From positions 1 through 64,000 of the forward strand of contig PUDQ02000013.1 in assembly GCA_002964805.2 (NCBI GenBank): DNA of 64,000 nt, in the 5' to 3' direction. Shown one piece after another: positions 9,920 through 45,520 of this stretch (positions are counted from its first letter, which is position 1; every line of letters starts with the position of its first letter). The translations under genes and the position numbers were made by a program. This DNA is from Trametes villosa. Taxonomy: Eukaryota; Basidiomycota; Agaricomycetes; Polyporales; Polyporaceae. The notes beneath the pieces were generated by a model. It was not told the DNA's origin. It did not search any database and saw only the letters and a list, made by a program, of their open reading frames with translations.

Positions 9920-11340
9920 TCACCGCTCGAGGCGCTCTGCGAGCCAAGCAAAGGTCGTCCATCCGACTTCGATGTTGTCTATGAGAAACTGTTATTGCAT
10001 CGCATTAGGAGACATGATCCAGACCGAGAGTCTCAGGACGCCTAAGACGCGCCGGAGAGTACGAGACGCTCGCTTGTTTTGAAAAGAGGCGCAGCTCCGT
10101 TTTCCGCCTGTTGCTCTTCAGGTTGTCACCAATTCCTAGAATCGCCTTAACTCGCGTATGAATACCATATACGTCCGTATAGGTGGTGATTCACCAATCA
10201 TGGAACAACGGCCGAAGCTCGGCTAGGATTTGCCTGCGCTCGTGCAGAGCTGCGGGCATCCGCCCCGCCTAGCTGCGTTTGCGCTATTGCGGTTCAGTGG
10301 GTACCACGGCTCCCCGGGTAGTGCGTGCAGATATCCGCCCTGTTATAGCTAAGAGTTAGTGTCGGACGTAGAACCTGAAATGCGCACTAACTTCTGTGAG
10401 TGATCTCTAGGGCACGTCCCAGTGGAGAGTTGAGACTGAACCTCTCATCGTGGCCGTCAGCGCGGCGCCGGGTGAGAGTGTGCCTACGTGCCTGGAGCAT
10501 TCGGCGCGTCCGCAGCCATCTTCACTAGGAGGCTTGCCTCTGGATGCGTGACCTAAGCTGGTGGTACGTCAGCGTGACAGTCCGAAAAGGCTGCAAGGAC
10601 GCCGAGAGCGCTGTCCTTTTCCAACGAAGGGAGCTGCAAACCTACGTTGCGACTCTCCTCCTGGAGATCTTGATGTCGCTGCAGCCCTTGATCGTGATGG
10701 AGTCAGAGGCGGCTTTTGAAGCGGGCGATGACACGATCGACGATACGCCCGAAGCTGGAGACGCCGTTGACGAGGTCCCTGAAGCTCTCGCGCGTCCTGC
10801 CGGAGGCGAAACCGTGCCTTTCCACCACCTATAAACAGTTCGATTATAACATTCTGCGACAGAGGTAAAGACGCATCGTACTTGCACTAACCTCCTGATG
10901 GCCCCCAGAAGCGCCTGAACATCGCAGGCGGTGCGTCTGACGTCGCCTAGGACCGCGTCGGCATGAACTTCGACCTAATCAGCACGGTACAAGGACGTAC
11001 GCTGCGAGGAAAGACGGTACAAGGACGTACGCTGCGAGGAAAGCCAAACTGACCATACATCGTGAAAGAAGCCACGGCAGCGATATCACGACTGCCGTCG
11101 ACGCATCTCTTGAAGCGCTCTGCGGGTTCAACAGTCAGCGATTGCAGCACGTCTATACTAGGCAGATATCCCTAGCTGAGGACGTCCATAGCTCGGAGCT
11201 CCCGGGGGGTACCCCTCCACCGTACCAGCGATTTCGCGAATGATGTTGATCATCGATATAGCTGCGAAGATGGAATATGTCGAGTTCTCAATAATTGCGC
11301 CGGCCTCAAATTTCCAGAGAGTACAGCTCTTGCCGGCCTA
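9920..11340 (-). pseudogene. psiA1: decayed type A helical-family gene
   Basis: Exons homologous to A2 and A3 can be traced in order on the - strand: the end of exon 1 (about 11250), an intact 64-nt exon 2 (11117-11054, RFKRCVDGSRDI), exon 3 (about 10960, VLGDVRRTACDVQALL), exon 4 (about 10800-10650), the LSPGAAL part of the hydrophobic exon (about 10480), the MPAALHERRQ/ELRPLFHDW exon (about 10260-10120) and the last exon (FLIDNIEVGW, ending 9920). Exon 4 is frameshifted at an A-run. The ELRPLFHDW exon has an in-frame TGA directly after the Trp. No start codon is convincing. It lies head to head with B1, so it was once a divergent A/B pair. Confidence 0.7.
10984..11043. repeat. Two perfect 30-bp tandem copies
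   Basis: The unit beginning ACGGTACAAGGACGTACGCT is present twice without mismatch (10984-11013 and 11014-11043). On the - strand it falls in the intron after exon 2 of psiA1 and duplicates a CCTCGCAG acceptor-like motif. Confidence 0.9.
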
Positions 11341-12059
11341 GAGGATATCAGCTTGATGGATGGAAGGAGAGTTACCTGAGCGCTAGCGCGGGACGAACCT
11401 GCGCGAGGATCGTAGGGGGACTGTGGTCGCGCTCGATCGTCGAACGTTGAAATACCTTTACAAATGTGGTTTGCACAGGAATCAGAACGCGCTGAAAGCA
11501 CAGGGCATGTTGATTGACGATTCTGGGGACTGGGACTCCTAGTAGCCCGCCAGCAAATATTCGCAGCTAAGGCCGAGCTGAAGTGACATCGACTGAGCTC
11601 GAGTGCGCGGGCGAGGTGTGGGGAATAGACGCTCATGCTAGGCGCGAGGTCGCCACGTGGCGGGGTTGTCATTCTCTCCAACGCTGTTCCATTCACTACT
11701 CACGACGACGACCACTAGCTATTTTGCTACTACGGCTGGACACAATAGCTTTGTATACTCATTCAGAACTCTCAAGGAGGAGTGTGTGAAGAGGTCAGGA
11801 AACCACTCGCGACAAACACACAGGATACCGCAGGGGGGCAAGATCGCCACCACGTTCATACCGCACTGTCTCTGCACCACCGTGGCCATTCCTAGAGGTG
11901 AATGCCCACCTTCTCCCCCTATTCACGAGGCTGCGCAGCTAAACCGATATATGCCATCACCCACGAGGTATGTGAGCCAGTACTAATACTCCGACTTCCG
12001 CCCAGAGTCATCCCCGCATTCCCCACCTGACAACTTCTCTCCCTAGCGTCACTCACAGT
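11341..12059. other. Intergenic between psiA1 and B1
   Basis: About 700 bp between divergent genes. It probably contained a shared promoter region. No defined motif was recognised. Confidence 0.4.
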
Positions 12060-13351
12060 ATGCCCCAGGAGCAACCACTCACCGTGTACCACAAAGAGAT
12101 CCGACGCCTCGCGTACTCTACTCGCACGCTACTCCCAGCTCTCCGCTCTATCAAATGGCAGGTCACCACAGTTTTTGAAGACCAGAACGAGCTCGAGCAG
12201 GAATTGGGGCGATGTTACGCGGTTCGTCTCCCCACAGATCCTCTGCTACATCTCGCACATCCCTCAACGTCCTCTGTTCAGGCCTATGAGAAGATTGTAG
12301 ACGACTCCCAGATTGCCGCAGTCAAGCTATCCACGACCATGAACAGTGAGTGTCGCATCACAAAAGTGCTCCCCTTGTCGCTCACAGGAACGCCCAGTGT
12401 ACGCGTCGCTCCAGTACGCGTTCCAGACCGCTAGCAGCGCGGGTGTCATACACGAGATGACGACGTTCAAAAAGGTGCGCATCACCCTCACGACGGCGAC
12501 ACATCCATTGACGTAGCGTCGACGTTCCATGCACGCCTCCTGTCCGTTGTTAGACCACCGATGCAACCGAGTGCGATTTCAGCCCTCGGCTGGACGCTGT
12601 TCATAGCGCTGTAGAACAGTTTCTGAAGTCGTTGCCCCCGTCCACAGCCGACAAAAGGAACATCTCTCCCGAGGGGTACGACAGCGGTGGTCTCCCCGCG
12701 CATAGGACGATTCTGACTAGCGTAGATCACAGACAGGTTGGGTAGGGTCTGCGTCGTCTGCCCTACAAGCAGCGGTGTATCACCTGCTATGGTACGTCGC
12801 TCGCAGAGCTATATATTCTTCCGTGCTCACTACTTCATAGGGCGCCCTGGTTCTATGTCGGGGGTCTGCTGGCTCCGAAGCCCGTCAGGTATTCCCCAAA
12901 CGCCGTCCAGCAACACGGCGAGCACGTTGTCGAAGGATCTATCTTCAACGAAGACGCGGATTCTGCGCCTGAGGTGATCGCGAACATTCGGCAAATACTG
13001 ACCGCCCTCGACGCACAAAGGGCTCAGTTCGGCGTTTTCCAAGAGATCGCGAGCGAGGTGAGTCCGTTCATCGTCTCCGTTCACATATCGAAGCTCTCTG
13101 AATGCCCTTGTGCAGCTTGTAGGGGACTTCGACCGATACTCGGCCGCACTGAAGGCCGCAGAAGGCCAGCCCAAGAAACCAGTGAGCCGCCTCTATCCAC
13201 GCCGACTCAACGTAGCTTAACGCACCGTCTGCTTCCGTCTTCGCAGGCGAAAGTGGAGGCCGCACAACGCGCTCACGCCGCTGCTGCTTCACGAGCGGCA
13301 GAGTGGAAGGAGCTTGGGCGGGTACTCAACGTGGAGTATGCGCGGGCATAG
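12060..13351 (+). CDS. B1: type B helical-family protein, 270 aa
   Basis: Seven exons fit in frame: 12060-12221, 12282-12345, 12398-12474, 12554-12675, 12841-13057, 13116-13181 and 13247-13351. They total 813 nt with TAG at the end. Landmarks are YEKIVDDSQIAAVKLS in the 64-nt exon 2, SPRLDAVHSAVEQFL in exon 4, WFYVGGLLAP opening exon 5, an amphipathic helix with NIRQILTALDAQRAQFG, and the C-terminal EWKELGRVLNVEYARA. The protein is predicted all-helical, with no signal peptide and no clear membrane span. Exon lengths match B4 for exons 2, 3 and 7 and the total. It stands opposite psiA1. Family unassigned. A partner of a type A protein is inferred from gene pairing. Confidence 0.75.
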
Positions 13352-15160: not shown

Positions 15161-16435
15161 TTATACCCTGGCGTATTCCTCGCCAAGGACGCGCGCGAGC
15201 TCCCTCCACTGGCGCGCTCGCGAGGCGGTATCGGCATGGGCACGCCGGATGGCACCCGCGTGATCCTATATGATATCGCTAGGTCAGCAGCGCACGCACA
15301 GGTCAAGAGAGAACGTGCATTACATGGTTCTCCGCGGGGGCCTTCAGCGCCGCAGCATACCGATCGAACTCGAGCATGAGCTAGGCAACACAGGTGAGCA
15401 CCGGACGAGACGCAACCGAGTCCGCTGGCTCGACTCACCTCGCTCTTGGCGCTGTTGAAGACGCCGAAGAGCGTCGTCTGCGCCTCGAGCTCGCGCAGGA
15501 GGCGGCGTACGCCCGAAATCACCTCCTCTGGGGACCTGGCGTCGACCTCATAGGTGCGATCCCCTGCTCTGGGACTCTTCTCCCTGCGATCATCTGACCC
15601 CGATGTGGGCGCCATGATGCCGCCGACGTAGATCAGCGGTGCCCTGTGAGAGGTGTCAGCACTACACTAGAGGGTTCAACTTCGACTAACCATATCAAGT
15701 GATATCCGACCTCCTCAATTGCAGAGAAGACGGATGCCACCAACCCAGCGCGAGACCTGTCCTATGCTGATTAATCGACCGACAAGAGCGCATGAAAAAA
15801 ATGCGACGCGGACCTATCGGGAGAGCGTTCACCCAAGGGCACCTCCGAAACACGAGCTATTCCCGGAGCGCTCAGAAATTCTTCGATGGCGCTTTTGAGT
15901 GTATCAAGCCGGGGCGCCAAGTTAACGTCAATTGTAGAAACGGCCTGCAGACAGAGGTCGGGTGAGTAAGCGAGATCTAGAGCTGCAGTATGGGCGATGG
16001 GCGTTCGACTCGTTGCACGCACCCTTTTCAAGGTCGCCAGCTCATTGATCACATCCTGAGGGCTCGCTTTCGCAAATGCGGTTTGCAGGGATGTATACAC
16101 TGAGTCATCTGCTTCAGTAACGTGGCGATAGGGTTGAACAACATGCCGCGCTCACTGGTGATGGTGGCAGAGAGCCTGGTGGCCGTGGTTCTTGAGTCAT
16201 CCACGATGTCATCGTACGTCTATTCAAATGTCGTCAGTTATATCACCCTTGACCGTAAAACTCGACGACTTGCAGACACATGCGGAGCCCATCGCGCTTC
16301 CAGCTCGTCCGCTGGCTCAAAATGGTCCGGGATTTGGTACCTGACCCAGCGTAATGTTGACGTGGACTCGTTCGTGGATCGTTTGAGGTGTCGTATGTCG
16401 GATTGGATGGTAGAGCAAGGGCTGAGAGGAAGCAT
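15161..16435 (-). CDS. B2: type B helical-family protein
   Basis: ATG at 16435, stop at 15161-15163. The exon plan is that of B4: exon 1 with IRHLKRSTNESTS and DELEARW, a 64-nt exon 2 (YDDIVDDSRTTATRLS), exon 3 (YTSLQTAFAKASPQDVINEL), exon 4 (APRLDTLKSAIEEFL...ERSPDR), exon 5 (PLIYVGGIM...EEVISGVRRLLRELEAQ), exon 6 (LMLEFDRYAAALKAP) and a 105-nt last exon (15265-15161, QWRELARVLGEEYARV). The donor of exon 1 is uncertain. No stops interrupt the exons. It is very similar to B4, so the B2/A2 and A4/B4 modules look like an inverted duplication. Unknown family, all-helical, no signal peptide. Head to head with A2. Confidence 0.75.
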
Positions 16436-17173: not shown

Positions 17174-18832
17174 ATGTCCGTCGGCACACAGGAATCGGGC
17201 CTGGAAGCAGGTCAACTAGACGGGATAAACCGCATTCTGAAAAGCAGCAACTTCGAGGAAACACTCCGACAGGACATAGTCGAGCTGCAGACGAACATCA
17301 CGGAGATCCGTAGGCTGTTCGGTACAGTCCACGACTCGCTGGAGGACTTCGACTACAACCATGCACCCACCAACCCGACCCGCCACCTCGCGCCAGAGTG
17401 GAGGGGCTTCTCTAGCGTATGTTTAACTTTCCAATCATGTTGTTCTTAGCTTGCGTCCACGCTCAGCGCTCTATCTAGCGGTTCGAAGACTGCGTCGACA
17501 AGAGTCGCGAGAGCGCTGTCGCGGCGTCAAGCACTATGAAAAGTACTTTCCGTACTCGTCTAACCGCTGCTTAGGTATCTGATTATCAATTAATGCTTGC
17601 AGTGTACTCCAACGCTGTTCTCGGGAAGGTCGGGGAGGTAGACTGTGACGTCAACGGGTTGACAACCGAGATCAAGAAATTCTTGCGGGTAGGGATTATC
17701 GCAGTATCGCAGCTACCCGCACACCTCACCTTACAATCCTTTGTTTAGGGAGTAGAGCGGCATATACCCGCAGCAAGAAATACCCGCAGCAACTTCAAGC
17801 AGCTCGCGAACGACGTCCGTGACTTTGAGCGCACTGTCGAGCGCACCCTGAGGCAGCTCAGCCTCCCACCATCTGAGGACATCAACCGAATCTGTGGCAA
17901 CATCGATGAGTTGAAGCGGAAAGTTGCGGCGTGAGCGTCCTCCCCCTCCCTCACACACTGCGTCCGCATGAGATTCACGTCGCCTATTTACATGTCAGGA
18001 TGTCCAACGAGGTATGTAAACGTGCCACCACGATGCTCCCCTTCGGACTGATTTGCTCACGGAAAATCAGCTCGTCACTCTAGGTACCGGCTACTTCAAG
18101 TCGGTGGCTTCTCTTGCCCCGCGTGCTGCCGAGCTCCTATGTACTATATCCCCAAGAGCCGCGTTACAAGCCCTGGTGAGCTCTTCGCCGTGGTCGCCAC
18201 CCAATACTTACCCCAGGTCACAGCAGGCCGTCTTCGTCTTGCCTGCGGCACAGGTGGACATTCAGAATCAAGTCGCAGGTACGTCACTCGGGCTGCGTCC
18301 ATCCGGAAAGTGCCAGGTTGACACGCATACCTCCTCTAGCGCAAGCGGAGCTCGAGCTCGCCGCGGCGCAGATGTCCGCGGCGCTGGAGAGCGCACATAT
18401 GCCGCCTGAGGTCCGCCCGTTCTACGAGGCCTGGCGGGCGAACACGCGCGGGGATATTCTCACTGTCGCTACCCGCATCGACGCAATTGCGCAGATCTGG
18501 ACCCACGTACGCCACCCTCCGAGTATATCTCGCATGACGATCGAGGTGCTGATTGACGCTGTCTGCCTCCTGAACGGCCAGCTGCGCGTTGACCTGCTCA
18601 CGCTAGAGTCGAACCTCAGCCTCTTCGCCGGCCGAGATCGCGTTGCCAATTCGAACGTACGTCTCCATTTGCGTGGCCCTATTGTACATGCTCGTTCCTG
18701 ACTGTGACTGGGGCGCAGTTCCTCATGGAGAAGATCGGCGTGAGCCAGATGGTACTCCTTCGACTCGCTAAGTGCCTTGAGCTGTACGTGTACCAGATTC
18801 CGCAGGAGAGCACGGCGCGCGAGACGCCCTAA
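17174..18832 (+). CDS. A2: type A helical-family protein, 367 aa
   Basis: Ten exons fit in frame: 17174-17416, 17479-17542, 17603-17688, 17749-17930, 17999-18011, 18071-18175, 18224-18278, 18340-18506, 18582-18656 and 18719-18832. They total 1104 nt. Landmarks: TLRQDIVELQTNITEIRRLF, the 64-nt exon 2 (RFEDCVDKSRESAVAAS), NFKQLANDVRDFERTVERTL, a 13-nt micro-exon, then a moderately hydrophobic segment (GYFKSVASLAPRAAELL, TISPRAALQAL), the helix TRIDAIAQIWTHV, and the C-terminal FLMEKIGVSQMVLLRLAKCL. No signal peptide. The order, helical bundle then hydrophobic segment then bundle, recalls alpha-helical pore-forming proteins, but sequence identity to them is not evident. Divergent from B2. Confidence 0.75.
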
Positions 18833-25800: not shown

Positions 25801-26139
25801 TACGACCACACGAAGGTGATCGTGTCGAACCAAGGCCTGCTCGTGACGCACATCGACAAGAACTACCGGCTGACGCGGTTCAGCCTCGCGCAGGTCATGG
25901 CGCAGGCGCTCCGGCCGCCGCCCGCGGACCCCGAGCAGGCAAAGTTCCAGCAGCGCCTCGTGGACAAGGTCAAGTACATCAAGGAGGTACTCATCTCGAT
26001 CCGCAACGTCAGTGCGAAGACGAGCGAAGAGGACGCACCCGCGCCCCAGTCTGCTCCGGCGCAGGCGCAGGTGCAGGAGAAGAAGGAGCGGGCGACGATT
26101 GCGCTGAACTCGCGCGCGTCGAAGATGTCGCTGCGGTGA
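22863..26139 (+). CDS. Polo-like protein kinase (Cdc5/Plo1 type)
   Basis: Six exons: 22863-23132, 23600-23704, 23760-24256, 24310-25422, 25473-25731 and 25792-26139. They encode 863 residues. A Pro/His-rich N-terminus precedes the Ser/Thr kinase domain (about 87-345): glycine loop [10 protein letters not shown] formed across intron 1, lysine in [19 protein letters not shown], and the T-loop [15 protein letters not shown] charged linker (REREREQER) leads to two polo boxes. PB1 has [20 protein letters not shown] with the phosphopeptide-binding Trp. PB2 has FNFYDHTK with the His/Lys pincer. All catalytic and binding residues are present, so it should be functional in mitotic entry, spindle and cytokinesis control. 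Intron 1 (467 bp) is much longer than the others. Confidence 0.96.
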
Positions 26140-28821: not shown

Positions 28822-29859
28822 CCTAGTTGGACATTAGCGTAGTTGGAAAACCACCCGCGCAAGCGCACATACCGAGTCAGTGGTGGGTCTTCGTGAAGGG
28901 GACACGGGGTGAGGCCTCAAGCTTCAAGTGCTGGCGGGAGGTGGCATCATGAAGCTAGCCTTGCGGCGCTGGTGGAGTCCTGTAAGAAAGAACCGCGGGT
29001 GACGGTCCGGGTGAGAATGATCCTCTGACACATCGGCCAGAAAACATCTCAGAGCGCACGACTTCCGTGCGATTTCGAGCCAGAATGAGCAATTATCGCT
29101 CGCAGGAGAATAGGACATTATGCACCAGATCATCCCATGAAGTCGTAAGTATTAAAGTAACAATGTTTCGACGTTGGTGCCCATGCCAGGAGACTCGGAC
29201 TCGTTGAACTTCGAGCTTACTGAACGCGGGCGCTTGTCTCGTTTAGGGCAGGGCCCCGTGGTGTGGCACGGCTTGACCCAAATATTGTAGGCTTTGCCTC
29301 TACGACTGCACACGTATTGACATCAACTGGCCTGACACTCGTGCAATCCTACCGGGACATCATATACTCCAAGACCGACAAGTGAACAGATCCCAGAATC
29401 AACACCCCGGGCAGTGCGGACCTTTACGCGCGCGAGCCCACGGCAAGAGCGTTTCTGGGATGCGGCAAGCCGAGGTCAGCGCCGAACATGTACAAGAATG
29501 CCCTGTCCGAGCGTGTCAGCTGGCTCGAAGAAAGTCTCAGGTGGTGCCGTAGCGCTCTCGTAGTCGCCCGTTCATGGGAACGCCATTCACGAGACTCTCC
29601 CGGGGCATGTAGCACCCACCCGTCGCCTGGGCTGTATATCGGTGGGGATGTTTTCTCACCTACCATGGGTCCGTGCTTCTCAATCCGTTATCGCAACTAC
29701 GCGGTATCTTTTGATGTGGTAATCCGCGGAGTCTTCTGTAGCTAGGGCGCGCCGGGTGCGCGTGCAAACCTCGGTGGTTTTCCTCAGCTTCATTCGAACT
29801 CTGACTACCTCCACCGCCGTGTCCGCTCTGGCCGATATCTCATCAAATCTCAGTGGAAG
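28822..29859. other. Intergenic spacer
   Basis: About 1 kb upstream of both the HET gene (-) and B3 (+). No gene supported, and no partner type A remnant was found here. Confidence 0.4.
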
Positions 29860-31432
29860 ATGGCTTTTCAGGCACAGGAACATATACGGGAGATACAGGA
29901 GCAGTCGCCCGACACTATCCCAAACAACGCATTGGTGCCTCGCGAGGGTGGAGAGGTTAATGGAGCGCGCACCAGCTCTACGGTGCGTGAGCCCGCTCGT
30001 GCTAATTCCATCACTCATTGACACAACTTGCTTTCAGAGCCTAGCACTCAGAAGACTACTACATATTGAGCAAACCGTAGAAGACATCTCGGATATGTTC
30101 CTGCGGGTAGACCGTGTCCTCGACGATCTCAGGCCGACGAACGGACCTATAAGAGAGAACCCTTTACTAGAGTCTTGGGACGAGCACTATCAAGTAAGAG
30201 TCGACATCTGCGACCTGGTACGCCGCACTGATATTGTTAACTCTCCTAGGCGTTCTTGCGGATCGCCTCGCGATGTCGGAAGAACCTTCACAGCGCTGTG
30301 GCTATCATGGATGGTGCGTTGCAAGTGTTAAGCACGGCGTAATCTGTGGCGGCCAACGTTTTACGTTCGGTTGCAGTATGCCGAGAAACACTCCTCATAG
30401 AAACTGAGCCTTCGCTACACGAAGACGCAAAGACGGGACTAGAGATTGCAGAAAATGCCGGTTTCCACCTTCGTATCCCCGCGCAGGAAAACTACTGACT
30501 TTCATCGTTCAGTTCGTACGATCCGAGGCCACATGTGCGCGGAGTGCGACGGGCACCCTTTCAATGCTTTCTAAGGACATCATGAAGCTCCGATACCAAC
30601 TAGACGTTGCGCCCGCCGCACCTGCGGTCGCGTCGTATCCTCCAAAAATACACCCCTCCCTCCAGACTGCTCGTTATGTGTTGGGGCTCCTACTACCCAG
30701 CATGTCAAAGTGAGAACCACTACGCGCGCATATATGTAGTCTTTGGCAGTCTCACTGACAAGTTCGCCTCCTATACATGCCGGATTCGTCCGCCGATAAC
30801 CTCCCGGGGTTACACTCGCACCGGGTAACAGCCCCATGTCGCACTCCCAGACAGCAAAGGCGCAGTCCACGGCCCAAACAGCGGCCGCTTCGTCCCCGCA
30901 CTCGCCCTCAGCACCCGACTCCCTTGCCGAGACAAGTCATGCCACCGGTGCGCCACCGCTCGTTGATGAACCCGAGTTATCCTACCCAGAGGCGATGAAG
31001 TACGACATGGAGCGCACGGCGGAAGAGATCGAGCGCTTTGCGGTCAGCTGGACGGAGGTGCGTGTTCCTGTCTGCCACCACAGCCTCGGTACCCGCGCTC
31101 GTCTGTGTGAATTTCGATATGTGTCTGCGGCTCACTGCATGCGTGCATGTTGGTAGATCGCTGCTGAAATCGAGCTATGGGCGGCGTATCTCAGGCGCCG
31201 CAGCGAGATGCTCGCGCTTCGCCCGCAGGCGTCAGGAGACCTCAAGGATGACGAATTGGTGCGTCGTTCTCCTTCTTTCGGAGATATGTAAGGGCGTGAT
31301 GGCGCTTATGACGCTCCATGTCCGCAGGTGCGCGTTGAGGAAATTGCAGGGTTGTGGGACGCGATCATGGATATGCGGCACGCGACACTCGTGAGGATGC
31401 ACGCCCAGAAGCCCGCGGTTGTACTGTACTAG
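29860..31432 (+). CDS. B3: divergent helical-family protein (type B-like)
   Basis: Clear exons: 29860-29982, 30038-30193 (RRLLHIEQTVEDISDMF), a 64-nt exon 30250-30313 (FLRIASRCRKNLHSAVAIM), one starting at 30377, and at the end 31157-31258 and a 105-nt last exon 31328-31432 (VEEIAGLWDAIMDMRHATL). The 64-nt exon with phases 0/1 and the 105-nt last exon tie it to type B. The middle (30470-30830) could not be resolved. A helical exon near 30510-30610 fits, but it may instead be damaged or split into two genes, the second starting at ATG 30836. Sequence similarity to other members is low. No membrane segment seen. Confidence 0.45.
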
Positions 31433-33019: not shown

Positions 33020-34732
33020 ATGTCTCCTGCCACTTACACCACCAGCTCTGCCCGCGCTAAACAGCCGAAGCTCCGCTCCATGATAATCTCTCCAACCTCT
33101 CCTGTGCCCGTGCCTGATCAAGCCTCTCAATTCAACCAGGCTTTGCAGAGTAACGACGTCGGCACGACCATCAGGCTGGAGATTACCCAGCTCGGGGATC
33201 ATATCCAGACTGTAGACAGGCTGTTCAGCAAGGCTCAGGATCCGCTTCGGGAGTTCGACGCAAGGTACCTGGAACTCGATGTCAAGGCTCATCTTGCTCC
33301 TCAATGGCAAGCTTTCCACGAGGTTAGCCTTGCACACAGTCCTCCTCATATGTTGTAAGCATCGCTGAGCGCAGTCGACTTCTCTTCCAGCGTTTCAGCG
33401 AGTGTGTTGACAGCAGCTATACGAGCGCGAAAGAGGCCTCTGAGACAATGAGATGTATGTTCACTTACAATTAGGCTATCCGAGATGCTGATTGCGGAGC
33501 AGTGTACGCCGAAGCCGTTCTAGGGAAGGTTCGAGACACCAAGTGCAATGTCGGGGCACTGATGAGAGAGGTTAACCTGTTCCTGAAGGTAAGCGTCTTA
33601 TTTACATCCCTTGTACCATCGCTGATGGCTCGCAGAGGGTCGAAAGGCACGAACTATCCGCAGAGACGATGCACCGGAGCTTCAAGAGCCTTGCCGCCAA
33701 CGTCAACATGTTCGAGAGCGACACTAGAAGGCTCGTTGAGCAAGTCGCTCGTAGCCTCAACATCCCTCCTTCGCATATCATGTTCAAGGCCTGGGACAGT
33801 GTCACCGAACTGAATGAGCGCATCGCGAGGTATGTGCTTTACCGCGTCGAGCACGCCGGGCTCATGTTTTTCATCTATCCTTACAATCAGGCTCGTCACT
33901 GAGGTAGGAGCGCAACAACGTCAGACTGCCTACGGGGGTTCGAGCTGAGCTACTTGCGTGTAGATGGCGGAGAAAGAAGCTGGCTTTTTGCAGAAGATGA
34001 CAGCGTACACGTCTAGTGCTGCCAGCGCCCTGTGCACTCTGTCGCCCAAGGCGGTGCTGCAGGCCATAGTAAGTGATTAGCTTACAATGTTATCAAACCG
34101 GCGTGGCTTACGCTGAGGATCAGATGTCTGCATACACCGGGCCCGAGTGGGCCATAGATGCGGATACAAGGGGTGAGCAGCTGTATATGTCACCCCCGAT
34201 GTCAACTACGTCTAACATGCATCGTTGGCGTACTAGCCACTCAAGCCCAGCTTGAGGCGTACGCGAAGCAGATGCCCTCCCTGACTGAGCTCTCCGAGAT
34301 ACCGGTTGAGTTGCAATCATTGTATCAGGATTGGTGGTCGAACACCAAGAAGGATATCCGCGGCGTGACCATCCGTATCGGGGCCATTTTCAAGATATGG
34401 CACAACGTGCGTCGCATTCCTGCATTGCCGGAATCCGTCCGGGACCGGCGTCCTGACTCGTTCTTCTCAACAGCTGCGGCATGACTTGCTCGGTTTGCAA
34501 AAGGAGCTGGAACATTGCGTTGAAGAATACGTCGTCTCCGAGGAATTGGTGCGTTGTCTTCAACCTCGTCTGCCCACGGCGCCACGCATCTAATGGCCCG
34601 TCGTATCCTCAGTTTCTCATGGAAAAGATCGACATCAGCCGGACCCTCTGCAAGCGGCTCATCGAGTGCCTCGAGCTGTACGTGTACCAGGTCCCGCCGA
34701 AGTACATCGCGGATGCAGAGGACGCAGCGTAA
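33020..34732 (+). CDS. A3: type A helical-family protein
   Basis: Starts at ATG 33020. Exons follow the A2 plan: exon 1 (TTIRLEITQLGDHIQTVDRL), a 64-nt exon 2 (RFSECVDSSYTSAKEAS), exon 3 (YAEAVLGKVRDTKCNVGALM), exon 4 (SFKSLAANVNMFESDTRRLV), a 13-nt micro-exon at 33891-33903, a hydrophobic exon (MTAYTSSAASALCTLSPKAV), a helix with RIGAIFKIWHN, and a last exon with FLMEKIDISRTLCKRLIECL. All splice sites and frames are intact, giving a protein close to 370 residues. It is more diverged from A2 and A4 than these are from each other. Unlike other A genes it has no divergent B partner. B3 lies upstream in tandem. Confidence 0.7.
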
Positions 34733-35242: not shown

Positions 35243-36857
35243 CTAAGGGATCTGGCGTACGTATAGCTCCAGGCACTCGGCCAGCCGCAGGAGTACCGTC
35301 TGGCTCACGGTGATCTTCTCCATGAGAAACTGCACCCAGATCGTTCAGCAGCTGTAGCACTACGCGGGAGAAAACGTACGGTTGAGCTCGCGACCCTGTC
35401 CTCGCTGGCGCAGAGGCTAAGGTTCGACTCGAGCGCGAGCAAGTCCACCCGCAGCCGGTTCACGGGCGTGGGGTGCAGATGAGCGCGTGGGGCTGCTAGA
35501 TAGAGGGAAAAGAGGGCGACGCACGTAGTCCCAGATGTGGGAGATCGCGTCAACGCGCGTGGCGACTGCGCGCACGTCCTCGCGCGTCTTCGCCCACCAG
35601 TCCTCGTAGAACGGGCGGACTTCGACTGGGATGTGCGCGCTCTCGAGGAGCGCGGGCATGAGCGCTGCGTATTCCTCGAGGCTCGTTTGTGCTAGCAGGC
35701 CATGTACGTGAGTCCCGCGCGTCGTGCACGATACACGAATTGGAGCACGGACCTTTTCGCTGTGCGGCATCTGACCCAGCACTCCCTACAATGAAGACGC
35801 CTTGCTGAAGCCAGAGTGAGCGTACGTCCGGGACGAAAACTGAGACAGAGAGATGGCTTGCCAAGGCGCGTATCGCAACCCTTGGAGATAAAGTGGACAT
35901 TAGCCCAGCGGTGCGCGGGGCAAACGAGGCGATCGATCCAAAGTAGCCTGACCCTTGGGCCAAGGACTATTTGCGGGAGGCTCAGTACTTTTTAGACAGC
36001 CTACATGAAAGCATGTTCCCATACCTCATCGGGCATCCTGGCATCAGGTATATGGCGTGAGCCTCGCCCTCAACACAGGCACAGTATAAGAGGGAACGCT
36101 CACGTCGCAACCTTTTGCTTAACCGCATCGATATTCCCGCAGACATGGCTCGTGTCTCGCGACGGTGGCCTGTTCAGTTGCTTCAGGGTGCGCTCGATTT
36201 TGCGCGCAATGTCCCGAATATTGTTCGCGAGCTGCTTGAAGTTACTGCGCGCGTGCTTCGTAGCGGGAATATTCCTCTCCACTCCCTGACGTGTGACAGG
36301 TTAATACGCAGCTCAATGATGGGTGTGATATTATGACTGCTACCCGTTGAAAGATCTTCAGCTCGGCTGTTAACGCCTGGACGTCGCAGTTTGTCTCCCT
36401 AACCTTTCCGAGGACGGCTTGGGCGTACCCTCTTGGGCACCAGCAAAGTCAGTAGACCATACAGCTCTGAGTGGAGTAGGAACAGTACAATGTATGGTGC
36501 TTAACGCTGCGGCGGCGCTCTCGCGGCTCCTGTTGGCATACTCATCGAATCGCTGGTACAAGCGTCGACTGTTGATGTAAGCGGCGTGCGACGGCAATCT
36601 TAATTAACACATACTCTGGAAAAGCTGTCCCAGTCGGGTTCGAGACTGCGTGTAGGGTCGGCAGACAAGTATGTGTCGTCAAAGTCCTCGAGCGAGCAGA
36701 GAACCTTCGCGAAAAGAGCACGGATAGACTCAAAGTGTTGCTGTAATTCCGTGATGTCCTGCCTGAGTGTGTCGCCCACGTCGCGGCTTAGCAGGATGTG
36801 GTTTATGCGGGTAGCCTGGCCCGCACCTGCTCCAGATACCTGTGACCCGTTAGACAT
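35243..36857 (-). CDS. A4: type A helical-family protein, possible splice defect
   Basis: The start at ATG 36857 (MSNGSQVSG) aligns with A2. An upstream in-frame ATG at 36932 is also possible. Exons follow A2: TLRQDITELQQHFESIRALF, exon 2 (64 nt), SNFKQLANNIRDIARKIERT, the 13-nt micro-exon (36037-36025), the hydrophobic exon (GYFGSIASFAPRTAGLM, TLSPRVAIRAL), the EVRPFYEDWW helix and the last exon FLMEKITVSQTVLLRLAECL, stop at 35243. The acceptor before the exon beginning LRVDLLALESNLSL reads CCGG where A2 has CCAG. The nearest AG upstream gives the wrong frame. The gene may therefore be non-functional, or it may use an unusual site. Divergent from B4. Confidence 0.6.
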
Positions 36858-37648: not shown

Positions 37649-38948
37649 ATGACCCTCGACAAGCCTCTCTCCAACCTTGCAGCCAGTATACGATACCTCA
37701 AGCGATCTACGAACGATTCTACGTCAGCATGCAGCTGGGTCAGACACCAACTCCCAGACCATTTTGCGCCACCAGACAAGGCTAAGGAACTCGAGGCACG
37801 ATGGGTTCAGCATGCCTCCGTATGTCATCTCATCCTACGCTCAAGGGGGAGTGTATCTCACGACCTTTCAACTAGACGTATGAGGACATCGTGGACGACT
37901 CGAAGATTGCAGCCACAAAACTATCCGCGACCATGACTAGTGAGCACTGCATCGAGTTCGACCTTATTACGACGCCCCCAATCCACATATTCCAGTGTAT
38001 ACCTCTCTCCAAACTGCCTTTATGAAGGCGAAACCCGAAGATGTCGTACATGAGCTGGCGTCTCTGAGAAAGGTACGCACACCGAGTCGAACGACTATCG
38101 CCCACTATCGCAGTCCAAAATTTCAGTTACTCACGCCACCCCTCCTTCCCCTATCCTAAGGCTGTATCTGCGATGGACGCTAGCTTTGTGTCCCGACTTG
38201 ATATCCTTAGGAACGCTATGGAAGAGTTTCTGCGCGCCGCGGAGATAGCTCGCGCCTCGAGGCGGCGTATGAGCAGCGAACATTCCCCTGACAGGTGGGT
38301 TTGACATTCTTCTACGTTCTCCTATAGTTAGTTAACTAGGCTAGCATAGGTCGCACCCTGGATGGGTAGAATCCGCCACGTCTACGCTTCGAGGGGTCGG
38401 ACTTCACTTGCTATGGTTGGTTACCACTTCGGGCCGTAGAGTGGCGCTGACGTTCTCTTCCAGGACGCCTCTGCTCTACGTTGGCGGCCTGATGCTGTCC
38501 ACATCAGTGCACGATGGGCGTGGCGAGAAGGAGGTCAGCGCCGCCGCGGGCGCCTTCGACGAGGACGCCACGTCTCCTGAGCAGGTGCTATCGAGCATAC
38601 GCGATCTCATACGCAAGCTCGAGCAGCAGAAGACGTTGTTTGGCGCTCTCCAAGACATCAAGGATGAGGTGAGTTGAGCCTGTAGATCCATCCGGTGGCG
38701 CCTCGTCCAGCGCTGACATGCTTGGCACAGCTCATGTCCGAGTTCGATCGGTACGCGGCGGCGCTCCAGGCCCCCGGGGATGAACAAGTGATGCACGTTT
38801 CTCTTTGATATAGGCAAGCAATGCTGATGTGTTCTTGGTGTAGAGTCACGCGGAGGCCATTCGGCGCGCCCATGCAGACACGGTCTCGCGGGCTAGTCAG
38901 TGGAAAGAGATCGCGCGCGTTCTTGCCGAAGAGTACGCAAGGGCCTAG
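37649..38948 (+). CDS. B4: type B helical-family protein, 270 aa
   Basis: Seven exons in frame: 37649-37819, 37876-37939, 37996-38072, 38161-38294, 38464-38668, 38731-38787 and 38844-38948. They total 813 nt, the same as B1. Landmarks are ASIRYLKRSTNDSTS, YEDIVDDSKIAATKLSATM, YTSLQTAFMKAKPEDVVHEL, SRLDILRNAMEEFL, PLLYVGGLMLS, SIRDLIRKLEQQKTLFGAL and QWKEIARVLAEEYARA. The protein is all-helical, acidic in the middle and lacks signal or membrane segments. It is the closest relative of B2. It is divergent from A4, whose splice defect, if real, would leave B4 without a functional local partner. Confidence 0.75.
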
Positions 38949-39389: not shown

Positions 39390-40520
39390 TCCGCCTAGGC
39401 TCGTTGCCCGATCCGCAAATGCTCATACAGTAGAAACCGTCCTAACCCATACACCCCATAACCCATAAACCGTAAAAACCCATGGAATTTTGGCCTTCCC
39501 GAGTCGGGAAAGGGGGAAATCGACCCCATACCCCATAATCCCGGGATACTCCATACCCCATGCCTACCTGAGAGAAAATCCCATAGGTATACACTGACCA
39601 CGGCTTTGGCCCTGGGGCACATTTTCAGTATTCCTTCACTTGTAACACATGTGAGCTGGAGGAAACGAGTGTTTACGAGACGACGCAGGCAAATGGGAGT
39701 CGATTGGCAGCCAGATCTGGCGATCTGGTATAATAGGCGCTCGTGGAAGCGCTCAATGGGGCTCGCTCACCTGTTGCTCACTCATGGGTTACCTACAGCG
39801 AGACATACGAAGTACAGAGCTTATGCTAGAACGGCTGGAAAGCCTCCTGCAGGCTGTGAATAATCAATTATCAGCCCGAACATACACACACATGTTGGGC
39901 GCTTACTAAGCGTAGGCGGGCACGCGACGGGCGCTTGATCTGCTAACCCATATCCCGTGAAAACCCATAACATGGGGCCCTTCCCGATAGGTATGGGTTA
40001 GGACGGTTTCTACTGTATCCAGCTTTTCTGACGGTGTCCGAAAGCTCGACGTACCTCTAGAAGGCCAGCGCCGCGCTTTCCGCACGCGTAGGCCGTGTCG
40101 GTGCATTCACCCGCCGAAGTGATGTAGACCACTAGTCCGGAATCGATACAGCACGCACTCGCCCCTCGGAGTAGCCCTCCGAGTCGATATCGTCGTTACG
40201 TATAAGTATAGCGCGCCCGCTCCTACTATGGGACTACCAACACGATATCTGAGCACTCGGCGGTCGAACCCGCCGCAGCGATCAAAGGGTCGTACAGTCA
40301 AAGGCTGTCATAACTCGCTATGCTCACCACTGGCATACATTCTGTCTCGTCAGGTTATATCTCACTTCAGCAGAATGGCACCAACGCGGACACGGACGAA
40401 CTCGACGCTCTCAAAACGAGCAGTGACAGAGTGTTCTTACTCAGGCTACCGTCTAAGCACGTTGTTCTCTAGCATGTCCGAGCCACTGGCTATGACTTTG
40501 ACCAACACGCGCGTGACGAA
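39390..40520 (+). pseudogene. psiB5: truncated type B copy split by a MITE
   Basis: DNA on both sides of the 588 bp insertion aligns with the start of B6. PQMLI lies left of it. To its right are GVRKL, the GATCAAAG end of the 64-nt exon 2 (about 40285), the exon 3 region (about 40370-40440) and the start of exon 4 (GYDFDQHA, about 40490). Stops and frame changes interrupt it, and homology ends before the remaining exons. It lies just downstream of the 3' end of A5. It is therefore a decayed partial duplicate of B6. Confidence 0.7.
39428..40015. mobile_element. TA-flanked MITE, Tc1/mariner-pogo type, 588 bp
   Basis: Perfect 25-bp terminal inverted repeats (39428-39452 and 39991-40015, starting CAGTAGAAACCGTCCTAACC) are flanked by TA on both sides (39426-39427 and 40016-40017). 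No transposase is recognisable, so it is non-autonomous. The TA target duplication and the CAGT ends fit the Tc1/mariner superfamily. Confidence 0.9.
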
Positions 40521-40659
40521 AGTTAGAGATATAGCATGATGTGGTACAAGGCGCCAGGGCGGCGACGCTAAAGCGATACGCAACTATCCAAAACTACAGC
40601 ACTGAGAGAACACGGACACGCATGTCGGACGCGACGGGCTTACCGAATCCAACACCGCG

Positions 40660-42787
40660 CTACCCTTTCGCCCTGTCGGGTTTCCGTGTCGCCGTCGGAG
40701 CCTTGTCGCTCGTTTCATCTTTCCTACGTCCGCCGTCCTTGCTGCCCGTGCTGCCCGTGCTGTCCTTCTTTCCGATCTGCTCCACCTTGTGCCTAGCCTC
40801 ATCGCTCTTCTTGGGTCCTTGCTTGCCGCCATCCTTGTTATTCCTCTTCCCATCAGCCTCGTCGTCCTTCTGGCCGCCCTTCTCGGCCTTCTTCGCCGCC
40901 GGCTTTTCGTCCTTCTTGACCGGCTTTGCGTCAACTCGCCTGTCAGCTTGCTTGTCGTCCTTCTTCTCGACCTTGCCGTCTTTCCTCTCGAATTTACCTC
41001 CCCCACTTCTACCCTCATCCTTCTTCACTGCCGCGGGGCTATGGTTCTCCGATGTCGGTCCTTGTTTACCATCCCGCTTATCAACCTTATCCAGCTCCTT
41101 CCTCCAACCTTTCGCATCAAGCTTCTGTACTCGCGCAGGCTCCACCGGAGAGAGGCTCTTCCCATACGCTTCAAGGAGCGCGGAGAGGTCCAGGTACAGC
41201 TCGCGCGCAGCTTGCAGCTTTGCGCTGAACCGGCTCTGCGCAGCGAACGTCAGCATGCCCCCACAAAGAGCCCGGGCAGGGGAGACGCACGGTGATAACC
41301 TTCCCCTTCGTAACGAGCTTCAGCTCCTCATGCAGCATCTGCATGTCCGCCTTGAGCTACGCACACGCATCACTCATCAGTTCCAGAGAAACAACGCGAG
41401 AGAGGTCGGACGCGCGCTCACCGACTGCCAGATGTTTGCGATCGCGTCGATCTTGTCTGCGAGCGTGCGGATCTCCTTCTGCGCGCCGGCCAGCGAGCGC
41501 TGGTACTTCTTGAACAGCGCTTCCTGCGCCACGAGCTGCGCGATATCCTCTTCGCATTGCTTGATGTCCGCTCCAAGAGCTACGTTCGCCGGAGTCCCAA
41601 AGTGAGAGGGCGGAAAGGTTGGAGGCGAGGACTCATGCTTACTGCTTGCCTCCCGTCTGCTGCGGACGTAATCGTGCCCACTGCTGACCGCCCCTACGAC
41701 CGAACCCTAGAAGACAGATGAGTATCAAACGCACCGCTCCATGCAAATGAGAGGGAAAGCGACGGTGCGCACCACGGCAACACCCAGAGCGGCGGGACTT
41801 AGCGTGAATATGGTTATCGCGACGGCGGCAGCGCCGACCGCGAGGTGCGACACGCAGGCCACGCCCATGCCGTGCATCTGGGCAAACAGCTCGTCGGTGC
41901 GCGTAACTGAGAAGAACGGCTAGCACGCATACCTTCTTGGTCACGCTGTAGGCCTGCGGTTAGCAGGATTCAGAGTGGAACGGCGAAACGACGTACACCT
42001 TGAGCTTCTTCTCCAGCTGCGCGAGACGCGTCCGCGCATTCTCGAGCGCGATGCTCAGGCGAGCGCCGGCGCGCTCCAGCGCACTCTCGATCACGGTTAC
42101 GAAGAGCCGGAGGTCCTCCGCGAGCTTCTTGAAGCTGTTTTGCGAGGCCAACGCCTGCTTCTGCTCCGCCTCCACCTCCTATGCCCGCAAAACGTGTGAG
42201 CGCCTTCTCCGAATTCGATCGCGAAACCCTTCTCTTACCTCCATGAATCCCTTTAGCTCATTCTTGATATCGGGTATCTCTTCCAGCTTAAAGTGCGACA
42301 GCACGGCACTGCGATACTCTGGGCCGACGGCTGTCAGTTTTCACAAAGGGGTATAGGTTATTGCGGGACATACGTTTGATCATCGCGGAGGCTTTCAGCG
42401 CATTTCTCCGACTCTGCTCCAGGATGTTCTTGAATCGCTAGTCCCCAGCACAATGAACTCTAGGAAGACCGAGGATGGGGAACGGCAGCTCACGCTATGG
42501 TGCTTGTTCCAATCCCGCTGCAACAGAATGACTTTCCCGTCCCCGTCGAGGAACTTCTCCTTGTCGAACCTATACAGCTCCGCGCTTATGTGCTGGAAGT
42601 CGTCATCGATGTCCTGTATGTGCGCGTTCAACTGCCGGATCTCCTTGAGGGACTCGCTCTTGACGTCCTTCCGCAGCGCGTCCGCGAAGCTCCGCGTGAC
42701 GACGTCGCGCGTCGACTTGTCGCGCAGCTGCTTCTTCAGTGTGTCAGGGAACGTCACCTGCGCTGTGACGGTAGTGGTCTTCGACAT
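40660..42787 (-). CDS. A5: type A-like helical protein with Lys-rich tail
   Basis: Starts at ATG 42787 (MSKTTTVTAQVTFPDTL). It follows the A plan: EIRQLNAHIQDIDDDFQHI in exon 1, a 64-nt exon 2 (RFKNILEQSRRNALKAS), YRSAVLSHFKLEEIPDI, NSFKKLAEDLRLFVTVIESA, a 21-nt micro-exon (AYSVTKK), then a strongly hydrophobic segment (CVSHLAVGAAAVAITIF, TLSPAALGV), a helix with DKIDAIANIWQS and an ELYLDLSALLEAYGKSL helix. Unlike other A proteins it continues for about 150 residues of Lys/Asp/Glu-rich sequence with KKDDK, KKDE and KKAEK repeats to the stop at 40660. The membrane-like segment is the clearest in the family. Tail function unknown. Divergent from B6. Confidence 0.65.
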
Positions 42788-43954
42788 TGCACCGGGCGTG
42801 AGATTAGTTGGCAGCTGGCGGGCAGAGGGAAGACACCGCGCGGGGCGATCAACGTCGAGTACTTATCTCACAGGAGCAGCTGACTACACGACTCGGCCGC
42901 TCTATCGAAGGAGTACAGTCATTGGCATGCGGCGATGTCTTCTGATGCGACTCCTGGACAAATGCTCCAGGGAATGCGGCATCAATGCTGTTCAGAGGCG
43001 CTCATTGCGGTCGACGAGGCGGTACCGTGCGGCGTGGAACGTGCACGATCCCTCGCATCGCTTTGCGTAGCGAATGGGCTGAGGAAATCCGCGGATGAGC
43101 AGCACATCTAAACGATAGAGTCGCGTGAGCTTACTTTCTACCATACATGAAGAAGAAAGCCTCTCCAATATACCTCTGCAGTGTGCCGCGGCTCACGAAA
43201 AGTTCAAGATAACGAACAGTTGAGCAATTCAACTTCTAACAGCCGCTTGTTGTCATTTCAAGTTCATTTCTATGCCAGAAAAAAGCATGTATTCCAGATG
43301 CTCTAGCTAGGCCGCAAGTCGATGGCGATCAGGCTTCGCCAGAGTAAAAGGCGCAAAGAACAAGCTCGTCTGCGGTTTAGCGCCAAGTGGCGTAGTGCCA
43401 TATTGCTGTTTGCACCTGTTTGCATCACCGCCCTTCCACGAGCCAGGTTGCCTCGCTGCACTTTCAAGAGTACCTTCACTCCAGTAAGTGTCTACGACCT
43501 CTCATTTCGCTTGGTTCGACTCACACCGCCGCACTAGAATATACTTCACCTACCCTGGGCTGCGGCACGCCCAGGAGGAACGCTCGCTCGAATTCCCTAG
43601 TCCAATCGCGCCGTATGCACGCGCCCTTGCGCGCGACGCCGATAAGCCTGCATTTGGTGTAGCACCAGCGACATCCGGTGTTATGCATTCCAACACTGCC
43701 CCCTCCGAGGAGCGCGCAGGATCTGCCCAGCAGCATAACCAGTGCAGCTGCGGCCGAACGTCAAGAGAAGGTTCAGCTGATCCAGACGACCCGGACAGCC
43801 TCGACCCTCCACGACCACACTCCCACCGCACACCCGCCGCACCACGACCGTCGCTCCATCAAACCTCGGAGTGGTTCCACGGTCTGGCAGGTGAACTTGA
43901 CTCCTTCCGCCCCGACTCGGAGCAGCCTGTGTGTGCTTGATCTCTCTGCGCACC
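42788..43954. promoter_or_regulatory. Divergent intergenic region of A5 and B6
   Basis: 1.17 kb between the starts. A helix-like open stretch (ITSAAAAERQEKVQLIQT, about 43740-43790) could be an upstream exon of B6. Otherwise no gene is seen. Confidence 0.35.
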
Positions 43955-45520
43955 ATGTCCTCGTCGAATCCGCACATGCTCATAGCCAGTTGCGCCGAAG
44001 GCGTCCGCAAGCTCGCGAAGACGCAGGCATACTTGCAGAAGGCCTTTGCAGCACTCGCCGCCCGTTCAATCCGGATCGATGCGTTCACCCGCCGGAATGA
44101 CGCAGACCAATGGTCCGCAATCAGCGCGGTATGCATCCGCCCCTCCGCGATCGGCTGCCCATGTCGACGTCACTGATGCATAATGCTCATGTGTACAGGA
44201 CTATCAACATGTCGTTGAGCAGTCCGAACACTCGGCCGTAAAACTCGCTGCAGCGATCAAAGGTTAGCCCTATTCTGCTGTGTTATGAAGCTCGCTGAGC
44301 TCTGCGCATACACTCTTCCACGCTAGTTTATGTATCCCTTCAGCAGGACATCACAGATGCGGAGACAGACGACATGATAGTCGAACTCAGCGCGCTCAAG
44401 ACGGTACGTATCGGGATGATTTACCTCGCGCTCTCGTCTGTTAATCGTCACCCCCAGCATGTCGCCGGATACGATTTCGAACAGCATGCTGCGCTAGCAA
44501 GCCTCATCGCCCGAGCAATACGCCTCAAGCAGCAGAAAGAGCAGTCCGTGGAGACGCGGCGCGCGTCTGTAGGCCTCAGAATGCAAGACGCCAGCCGCGA
44601 GGTTGACGCTTGCAAGGCGCGATTAGAAGAGTGAGTCTCCTCCATCGCTACCACCGACTACATTCTAACGTCCTTGCCAGATTGTACCGCGAGGTATCGG
44701 CGAGATCCTCATTGACCGCGGCGCCGACTGAAGGTTTCGTAGCACGCGGCCGCAAACGAGGCTATACTCAGTGAAAGCAAACCGACCATGTCAACCTACT
44801 TCCCCGGTCGCCGAAGCAATTCGCTTCCGCTCCCCCAGGCGTCTGGAAGTTCTGGAACGCAGGCGGATTCGACTGGGCAGCGCCGCAAACAGAGTCGCAG
44901 TCAGAATTCTCTCGACGTGCAAGCTCAAGTCTCGGCCCACAAGAAGAAAAGCCGGGATCTAGAAAACCAGATGGAGCGTGAGCGTCCCTCCCTCACCTTC
45001 CTGTGCCTTCCCTCTGATAAATGCCCGCTCTAGTGCTCCGAGGCGCACTGGCGGACTCACAAGATCGGCTTGCGAAGGCGAAAGCAACGCTACAGATGTT
45101 CGAGCGCGCGGACTGGGAAACGACACGCGACACCATGGAATCAGTCATCGTGTGCCTCGCCAAGCACGACAAACGATCGGGTGCTTTGGTGGAGCTGCGG
45201 AAACAGGTGCGTTCATACACAGACTCCTCGTATCGTCTCTACGTCCCGATCGCTGACTGGCACCGGTACTCCACGCGATTCGTACGGCGCAGCTGCTTAA
45301 CGAAGTGGACGCGTACCAGCTGGCTTTCCAAAGTATGAAGAACTATCCAGGACCGGTATGTCGTCCGTCTTTCCATCGACGCGCGGGTCAACGTCTGAAT
45401 CGGGTGTAGACGAGGCAGGCTGCGCTTAGCCGGATGCAAGAGCGGGTCGGCTCGACCGCCCCGGCATGGAAATCAGTAGCAGCATTGCTGGCAAACGAGT
45501 ACGCTAAGGGGAGAAAGTGA
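43955..45520 (+). CDS. B6: type B-like helical-family protein, extended
   Basis: ATG 43955 is chosen because it opens the exon aligned with other B genes. An upstream exon cannot be excluded. Exons 1 (43955-44128) and 2 (44199-44262, exactly 64 nt, YQHVVEQSEHSAVKLAAAI) are firm. Exon 3 (YVSLQQDITDAETDDMIVEL) matches B4. Exon 4 holds AGYDFEQHAALASLIARAIR and a long charged helix. Two further exons add a Ser/Gln/Lys-rich stretch (KKKSRDLENQME) absent from B1, B2 and B4. The last exons give DSQDRLAKAKATLQMFERAD and AWKSVAALLANEYAKG before TGA 45518-45520. It is an all-helical protein, unclassified. Divergent from A5. Confidence 0.65.

Follow-up and report, generated by a model that had tools for sequence, protein, structure and literature searches.

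The stretch of Trametes villosa DNA analysed here (positions 1–64000 of contig C13, i.e., PUDQ02000013.1, from an assembly of 46.7 Mb in 140 contigs; hereafter, the window) harbors, between 12 and 45 kb, two sequence families, A and B, which were disclosed on both strands by an all-versus-all comparison of the open frames of the window. The A and B genes are in several cases arranged head-to-head, the two families derive from one ancestral gene, and some of the A proteins remotely resemble alpha-xenorhabdolysin A and the Nhe proteins. A and B may be the partners of a fungal two-component system resembling the bacterial helical pore-forming toxins XaxAB/YaxAB and Hbl/Nhe, an interpretation whose chances of being right and of being wrong appear evenly balanced.

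Structure and Organization of the A and B Genes

Gene models for A2, A3, A5, B1, B2, B4, and B6, together with a partial one for A4, were obtained with a purpose-written spliced protein-to-DNA aligner. Low scores of this aligner, which places introns freely, were left uncounted because unrelated DNA already reaches about 51–92 at best (8 tests); a score of 122 was obtained once, on a presumed chance stretch. Overall, the window contains four genes of type A and four of type B, besides one gene of a third type (C), one degraded A gene, and one B fragment; one intron of A4 is unsolved. Clean spliced models are available for A2, A3, A5, B2, B4, and B6; each gene has 7–10 exons, and the introns are short (mostly about 45–75 nucleotides).

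The genes referred to as type I include A2 (17174..18832, plus strand; 366 amino acids, 10 exons, with exon-by-exon matches), which lies head-to-head with B2 (15161..16435, minus strand; 264 amino acids, 7 exons) at a distance of 738 bp, and A4 (35243..36857, minus strand), which lies head-to-head with B4 (37649..38948, plus strand; 270 amino acids, 7 exons) at a distance of 791 bp. The unpaired A3 (33080..34732, plus strand; 372 amino acids) and B1 (12060..13351, plus strand; about 275 amino acids) belong to the same type. All the introns of A2, A3, B2, and B4 are of the GT-AG kind; A4, which was traced by spliced alignment and frame reading, has one intron without a GT-AG solution, and in the spliced model of B1 one internal donor, picked by homology, is uncertain. 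The type II pair is formed by A5 (40660..42787, minus strand; 535 amino acids, that is, a core of about 384 residues with a mid hydrophobic segment, followed by a charged tail) and B6 (43955..45520, plus strand; 357 amino acids, 9 exons), which are separated by 1167 bp.

The remaining members are A1, B5, and type C. A1 (9878..11009, minus strand), divergent from B1, is a degraded A-type gene, recognized through a blastn block at 68.7% identity to positions 38860–40041 of C121, a contig carrying a second version of the region (see below); it shows scattered exon matches only and has no clean model. B5 (40049..40506, plus strand) is the N-terminal fragment of a B6-like gene (blastn, 69.9% against the B6-like C121 gene), whose spliced alignment covers only about residues 29–114 of the B6-like query. 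Lastly, type C (30038..31432, plus strand), whose start and some exon borders are unfixed, is a third, divergent member of the family and has its counterpart at about 21.1–22.6 kb of C121.

The first-pass annotation had described eleven copies of one family, about 370 (A) or 270 (B) amino acids long and including four divergent A/B pairs. The repetition of related intron-rich genes holds, and chance likeness is excluded by the best exon-to-exon match inside the window (1.25e-26) and by the match between B6 and its C121 counterpart (3e-106). The copies are not eleven intact genes, however, since A1 is degraded, B5 is a fragment, the eleventh is type C, and the models of A4 and B1 are imperfect. 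The pairs B2/A2, A4/B4, and A5/B6 were found as described, and so was the position of A1/B1, but with a degraded A1; the sizes fit A2, A3, B1, B2, and B4 (264–275 amino acids for the three B proteins) and do not fit A5 and B6.

A/B Pairs in the Rest of the Genome and Their Co-Divergence

Protein searches of the same genome revealed more A genes on contigs C82 (three, referred to as A82a, A82b, and A82c) and C10 (A10), as well as A-like pieces on C24; moreover, a B protein of C121 (Bh4), used as query, gave weak B traces on C82 (E-values of 0.05 and 0.10). Reading the flanks of these A genes disclosed two B genes, namely B82 (C82:275578–274035), which is complete and lies head-to-head with A82a (spliced score of 317 with the B6 query), and B10 (C10:1612896–1611338), head-to-head with A10 (spliced score of 1140 with the B82 query). 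The initial view that the A genes outside the array have no B partner was thereby overturned; the first search had spanned too little flank. No B gene was found in the flanks examined near A82b, A82c, or the C24 pieces. In total, eight head-to-head A/B pairs are distributed over four contigs, five of them outside the window, on C121 (three), C82, and C10.

In a mirror-tree comparison of the eight pairs, the A and B distance matrices are correlated with r = 0.922, a value reached by 42 of 40320 relabelings; with six pairs, r is 0.967 (12/720 as high). The phylogenetic trees, the mirror-tree, and the NCBIfam scans described below leave out the degraded or partial sequences (A1, B5, the C121 genes Ah3 and Bh2, and two C24 A-like pieces); the mirror-tree also leaves out A3, Ah2, A82b, A82c, and B1, which have no intact partner, and A4 entered both tree and mirror-tree with its first 231 residues only. 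The trees, constructed without B82 and B10, recovered a type I group and the groups formed by A5 and B6 with their respective C121 counterparts (A5h and B6h), with much else lacking resolution. The unlinked distribution of A and B that would contradict the first-pass annotation was looked for in this genome alone, which contains eight linked and co-diverging pairs but also unpaired A genes.

Common Origin of A and B

A profile comparison of the first halves of A and B gave an E-value of 9.8e-8 (2.5e-7 when restricted to the type II-like members). Moreover, in 12/12 A and 9/9 B models of this genome, and also in type C, exon 2 is exactly 64 nucleotides long and is flanked by introns of phase 0 and phase 1. 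The models were guided by homology and their intron phases are thus not fully independent, although the lengths and the splice sites themselves are present in the DNA. Taken together, the profile comparison and the common exon show that A and B are old paralogues of one family.

Similarity to Helical Pore-Forming Toxins

The NCBIfam library was scanned with nine of the twelve A models (all but A4, Ah2, and A82b) and with eight of the nine B models (all but the C121 gene Bh1). The alpha-xenorhabdolysin A profile (NF033928, hereafter the XaxA model) was matched at E < 1e-3 by five of the nine A proteins, namely A82a (1.8e-12), A10 (2.7e-10), A82c (4.8e-8), A5 (5e-8), and the C121 protein Ah4 (6.7e-4); the A82a match spans residues 26–336 of 371, i.e., nearly the full length, hydrophobic segment included. 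The NheB profile was matched by A10 (2.3e-6), A5 (1.1e-4), and A5h (2.7e-4), and either NheB or NheC gave weak matches with A10, A5, A5h, A82a, and Ah4; the MakA model was matched as well. Among the B proteins, B82 has the XaxA model as its sole NCBIfam match (7.5e-5; one of the eight scanned), and type C has no NCBIfam match. No XaxB-named model was listed for the eight B proteins, it being not established whether the library holds one. The eight controls consisted of reversed A5, B4, A82a, A10, A82c, and B82 and of two heptad-block shuffles (reversed A5 and B4 were exact, and reversed B82 had one wrong letter of 350). None of them matches the XaxA model at E up to 1, even though reversed A82c matches another coiled-coil family at 8.8e-5. 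A generic coiled-coil artefact was rejected as the sole explanation because the XaxA match is lost in these reversed and shuffled sequences. The A proteins are remote homologues of the alpha-xenorhabdolysin A/Nhe pore-forming family, with a resemblance going beyond composition.

Other searches were less informative. The XaxA model gave no match when searched against the genome itself, presumably since the exons are short, and none of 48 pattern matches pointing to bacterial relatives was confirmed by tblastn. The Pfam matches are mainly sub-threshold coiled-coil ones, with one member matching PF07342 (TscT) at 0.011.

As for the hydrophobic segment, the best 19-residue Kyte-Doolittle mean was computed for each model and compared with those of 1000 shuffles of the same sequence. 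It ranges from 1.68 to 2.51 in the seven A5-type models and from 0.87 to 1.95 in the five A models of type I. In 11 of the 12 A models, the exception being the truncated A4 model, this best stretch begins at residue 195–236; in B, its position is scattered. In all nine B models the hydrophobicity falls below that of most shuffles of the same sequence (852–997 of 1000 reach the value). Of the mid-protein hydrophobic segment that had been attributed to A and denied to B, the position in A and the low hydrophobicity of B hold, but the segment is clear only in some A5-type proteins.

A number of observations weigh against a pore-forming system. All the scores are far below the curated cut-offs, both for XaxA (125 bits, the best value being 47.2 for A82a, with 32.6 for A5) and for the Nhe models (500 for NheB and 420 for NheC, the best value being 27.0 bits, A10 to NheB), so that the A proteins are remote relatives and not members of these families. 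A2, A3, and the C121 protein Ah1 have no XaxA match and A5h reaches only 0.026 (4/9 A proteins miss 1e-3), and seven of the eight scanned B proteins (B1, B2, B4, B6, B6h, Bh4, and B10) have no toxin-family match at 1e-3. Reversed B82 matches another toxin model, MakE, at 0.34, and in 6 of 14 control genomes the XaxA model also finds matches at E up to 1. No ClyA- or Hbl-type family is among the Pfam matches listed, and sequence searches of solved structures gave no pore-forming toxin of this kind. In Pfam, A4 exceeds the cut-off of PF19493, Trypco1 (26.9 versus 24.6 bits, E 7.6e-6, residues 69–126, in the region of window positions 36557–36650), with no match in A2; this could be either chance or a real hint of a conflict-system domain. 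The hydrophobic segment exceeds the shuffles (at most 50 of 1000 reaching it) in only 3 of the 12 A models, i.e., A5, Ah4, and A10, being reached by 236 shuffles in A2 and by 917 in A3. Finally, several A genes are unpaired (A3, Ah2, A82b, A82c, and the C24 pieces).

On the whole, the two-component pore-forming guess gains support from the profile matches of A, the outcome of the XaxA controls, the head-to-head pairs at independent loci, and the co-divergence of the partners; no likeness of B to XaxB emerged among the models listed, and the hydrophobic segment is weaker than the first-pass annotation would suggest.

Counterpart of the Region on Contig C121

The stretch C121:1–51637 (566 bases missing) was tiled and compared with the window, and the region turned out to be present twice, on C13 and on C121, with an inner block inverted relative to the outer parts and with different A/B sets. 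A dehydrogenase, a kinase, and a HET gene are collinear (C121 6056–15487 corresponds to window 19416–28846). The A5/B6 pair is located on the other side of this block and inverted (C121 3224–4910 and 554–2127), and the left HET gene with the degraded A1 also lies on the other side (C121 38860–43702 corresponds to window 11009–6401). C121 harbors three head-to-head pairs, A5h/B6h, Ah1/Bh1, and the much diverged Ah4/Bh4 (46–50.5 kb), in addition to the unpaired Ah2 and the degraded Ah3 and Bh2. The window stretch at 46.9–49.9 kb, with a Thioredoxin_12-domain gene, was found once in the assembly.

The two A5 copies share 62.0% of their amino acids, with 0.25 nonsynonymous (dN) and 1.11 synonymous (dS) substitutions per site and a dN/dS of 0.22 (379 codons); for B6, the values are 68.5%, 0.185, 1.09, and 0.17 (356 codons). 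Such ratios indicate that A5 and B6 are translated and under purifying selection, in agreement with the coding nature ascribed to the A/B loci by the first-pass annotation. The HET genes show 61.5–68.4% amino acid identity and a dS of 0.79–0.84. C121 also carries a copy, 90% identical, of the mid-array kinase gene (Pkinase, which we read as polo-like), with 98.9% amino acid identity, a dN of 0.008, and a dS of 0.39 (353 codons of the gene). Identity in 500-base steps along the collinear block is 87–95% at 22.8–26.3 kb, which comprises the kinase and its upstream side, and 69–85% on either side. Beyond either edge of this island (window 22801–26300), identity falls abruptly to about 75–78% within 500 bases; candidate explanations are gene conversion, local recombination, and constraint.

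Two further observations concern the A5-like genes. The last exon of both A5 (window 40660–41110) and its counterpart (C121:4890–5700) encodes a long charged tail; the two tails look mutually unlike, being K/D-rich in one case and R/D/Y-rich in the other; A10, A82a, and A82c end without a charged tail. Beside B6h, C121:1–197 resembles the last part of a further A5-like gene, and tandem repeats of the A5/B6 unit may therefore continue past the contig end.

The two versions are about equally likely to be alleles or duplicates. The kinase gene is expected to be single-copy, and its two very similar copies speak for alleles, as does the fact that each contig consists of one version with its own flank, like an assembly bubble. 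In favor of duplicates, the STE3 receptor matches are all on C10 (17/17) and the KN homeobox (PF05920) match is found in one place, on C49, because an assembly of two nuclei should show the divergent mating loci twice. The first view, that C121 was for certain the allele of the other nucleus, was weakened by this single pheromone-receptor cluster and single KN homeobox match. The receptors, about six of the STE3 type, lie at C10:124824–167349, the only site at E up to 1e-4. Such a cluster on one contig is in keeping with a basidiomycete, as are the HET-domain genes and the short introns.

Neighboring Genes

Two HET-domain genes, which belong to a kind that can set off cell death in fungi, accompany the array. 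One flanks it (open frame 7761..9836, plus strand; PF06985, E 4e-12) and has a second copy on C121 (dS 0.79). The other is located inside it (open frame 26806..28833, minus strand; PF06985, E 1.8e-12) and has two C121 counterparts, at 13444–15474 and 17721–19748, which share 88% protein identity with each other (dN/dS 0.42). On the right side of the window (53144–62181, minus strand), a gene is repeated in four tandem copies, each of which comprises a main open frame (about 480 amino acids) and an upstream piece (about 100); the main frames are 39–58% identical and have no Pfam match at 1e-3. At the left end, where C13 starts, positions 1–6400 are GC-rich (67–69%), and in our reading the opening bases resemble the terminal part of a polyprotein from a retroelement. 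Positions 2100–5400 recur at 98–100% identity on C1, C24, and C3, and in more diverged form elsewhere. Since the left end lies in a multi-copy element, it is a natural place for a contig break.

Proposed Mechanism and Alternative Explanations

In YaxAB, the A subunit has a coiled-coil stalk ending in a hydrophobic foot, through which it attaches to the membrane; it recruits the B subunit, and the lining of the pore is made of the amphipathic foot helices of B. XaxAB is described as alike in the structural papers (PMC5935710, PMC6086661). By analogy, the fungal A and B would be partner subunits descending from one ancestral helical gene. A would consist of a body folded as a helix bundle and of a hydrophobic tip that binds the membrane, and the longer B proteins, of the B6 type, would join A to complete the pore. 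Head-to-head transcription over an intergenic region of about 0.6–1.7 kb might keep the pair as a unit, and whole pairs would duplicate, diverge, and decay. When the first 45 residues were crudely scanned, no N-terminus stood out as strongly hydrophobic, although several models lack the true start. As no signal peptide is evident, the system would most likely act inside the fungus, as a membrane-permeabilizing effector of death or defense, rather than by classical secretion.

The middle of B82 contains stretches of small residues that, by our own reading, are possibly amphipathic. According to the alignment, the 270-amino-acid B genes of the window lack about 80–90 of the middle residues of B82, B10, and B6 and look like shortened forms. 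Hence, the type II-like pairs are candidate pore formers; those of type I, in which the A tip is weak and B is short, may, quite speculatively, be regulators, decoys, or decaying genes.

There are several alternative explanations. The first, that both families are nothing more than coiled-coil proteins with a structural or scaffold role and that the toxin match derives from general helix and heptad composition, agrees with the weak matches of many unrelated coiled-coil families, given by reversed controls too (down to 8.8e-5), with the failure to match solved toxins, and with a hydrophobic segment that is mostly unremarkable compared with shuffles. It appears unlikely in the light of the loss of the XaxA match in the reversed and heptad-block-shuffled sequences, of the nearly full-length A82a match, and of the concurrence of several related toxin models (XaxA, NheB, NheC, and MakA). 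If, instead, only A were a pore former and B a dedicated antidote or regulator restraining it until triggered (a poison-antidote or executioner-sensor pair), it would be explained why the hydrophobic segment, like the robust match to the toxin family, is found on the A side, as would the co-inheritance of the pairs revealed by the mirror-tree; moreover, two-gene clusters of a pore former and its controller are reported for fungal gasdermins (PMC10197012). An antidote-type pair could also act as a selfish gene-drive element. B shares the ancestor of A, however, as the co-subunits of toxins do, and unpaired A genes persist, which would be costly under an antidote model unless they are inactive, making this a rather doubtful explanation. 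A toxin secreted or released against competitors or grazers (bacteria, nematodes, or insects) would be in line with the bacterial relatives, which act on foreign cells (PMC5935710, PMC6086661), and with an arms race, which rapid gene turnover fits. Other release routes are conceivable, but the N-termini described above render such a role improbable.

The array might also be a locus of non-self recognition (somatic incompatibility), in which the nuclei would differ in their divergent A/B sets and HET genes, and a fusion cell combining incompatible sets would be killed by the opening of pores. This would account for two highly divergent and partly inverted versions with different A/B sets in one assembly, each on a contig with its own flank like an unresolved bubble, for the presence of two HET-domain genes in the array, and for dS values of about 1.1 for A5/B6 and 0.8 for the HET genes versus 0.39 for the kinase. 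HET-domain genes are, however, common in fungi, and the single sites of the STE3 (17/17 on C10) and KN homeobox matches imply that the assembly may represent a single nucleus and the two versions duplicates; a recognition locus is thus unlikely. Quite unlikely, too, is its more specific form, a polymorphic basidiomycete non-self locus in which XaxA-like pairs are the executioners, co-inherited with HET genes in anciently diverged, inverted versions in two nuclei. According to a statement in a 2021 review, the mechanisms of somatic incompatibility in basidiomycetes are "completely unknown" (PMC8229728), and no such locus was identified in a literature search based on titles and abstract openings. 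If the pairs were tied to non-self recognition, they would provide a concrete candidate for basidiomycete somatic incompatibility, which would then become testable.

Comparison with Known Systems

The array of divergently transcribed, dissimilar, duplicated, and highly divergent gene pairs recalls the HD1/HD2 mating-type pairs of basidiomycetes. The Pfam matches listed for the two families include no homeodomain, and the only KN homeobox match of the genome (PF05920) is on C49; a homeodomain mating-type array was consequently rejected. Fungal gasdermins (rcd-1, het-Q1) and HeLo proteins (HET-S) are likewise fungal membrane-permeabilizing death factors, which can serve allorecognition and are partly organized in two-gene clusters, as outlined in PMC10197012; unlike them, A and B have neither family among the Pfam matches listed. 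With the Bacillus Hbl/Nhe systems, A and B share weak NheB/NheC model matches on the A side, paralogous subunit families, and the existence of a third type (here, type C); they differ in scores far under the cut-off, in the lack of an Hbl-named model among the matches listed, and in gene order and control.

Two-component helical pore-forming toxins have been described from bacteria, and a literature search, outside of which were preprints and most subscription papers, turned up, among the papers listed, no fungal XaxA-, ClyA-, or Hbl-type protein; the stem "fung" is absent from the main text of the two structural papers on XaxAB/YaxAB (PMC5935710, PMC6086661). According to the same papers, these systems are built of a five-helix-bundle head, a coiled-coil stalk, and a foot. 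The fungal genes differ from them in being intron-rich, head-to-head, and arranged in a multi-copy array, in having matches under the family cut-off, and in a B protein without demonstrated XaxB likeness that, in the short window genes, also lacks the 80–90 middle residues mentioned above. The resemblance lies in the A-type proteins, which remotely match XaxA, in two partner subunits encoded side by side, and, putatively, in a mid-protein hydrophobic region that stands out in some A proteins and is absent from B. A native fungal pair of this kind, if true, would represent a new class of eukaryotic pore-forming protein.

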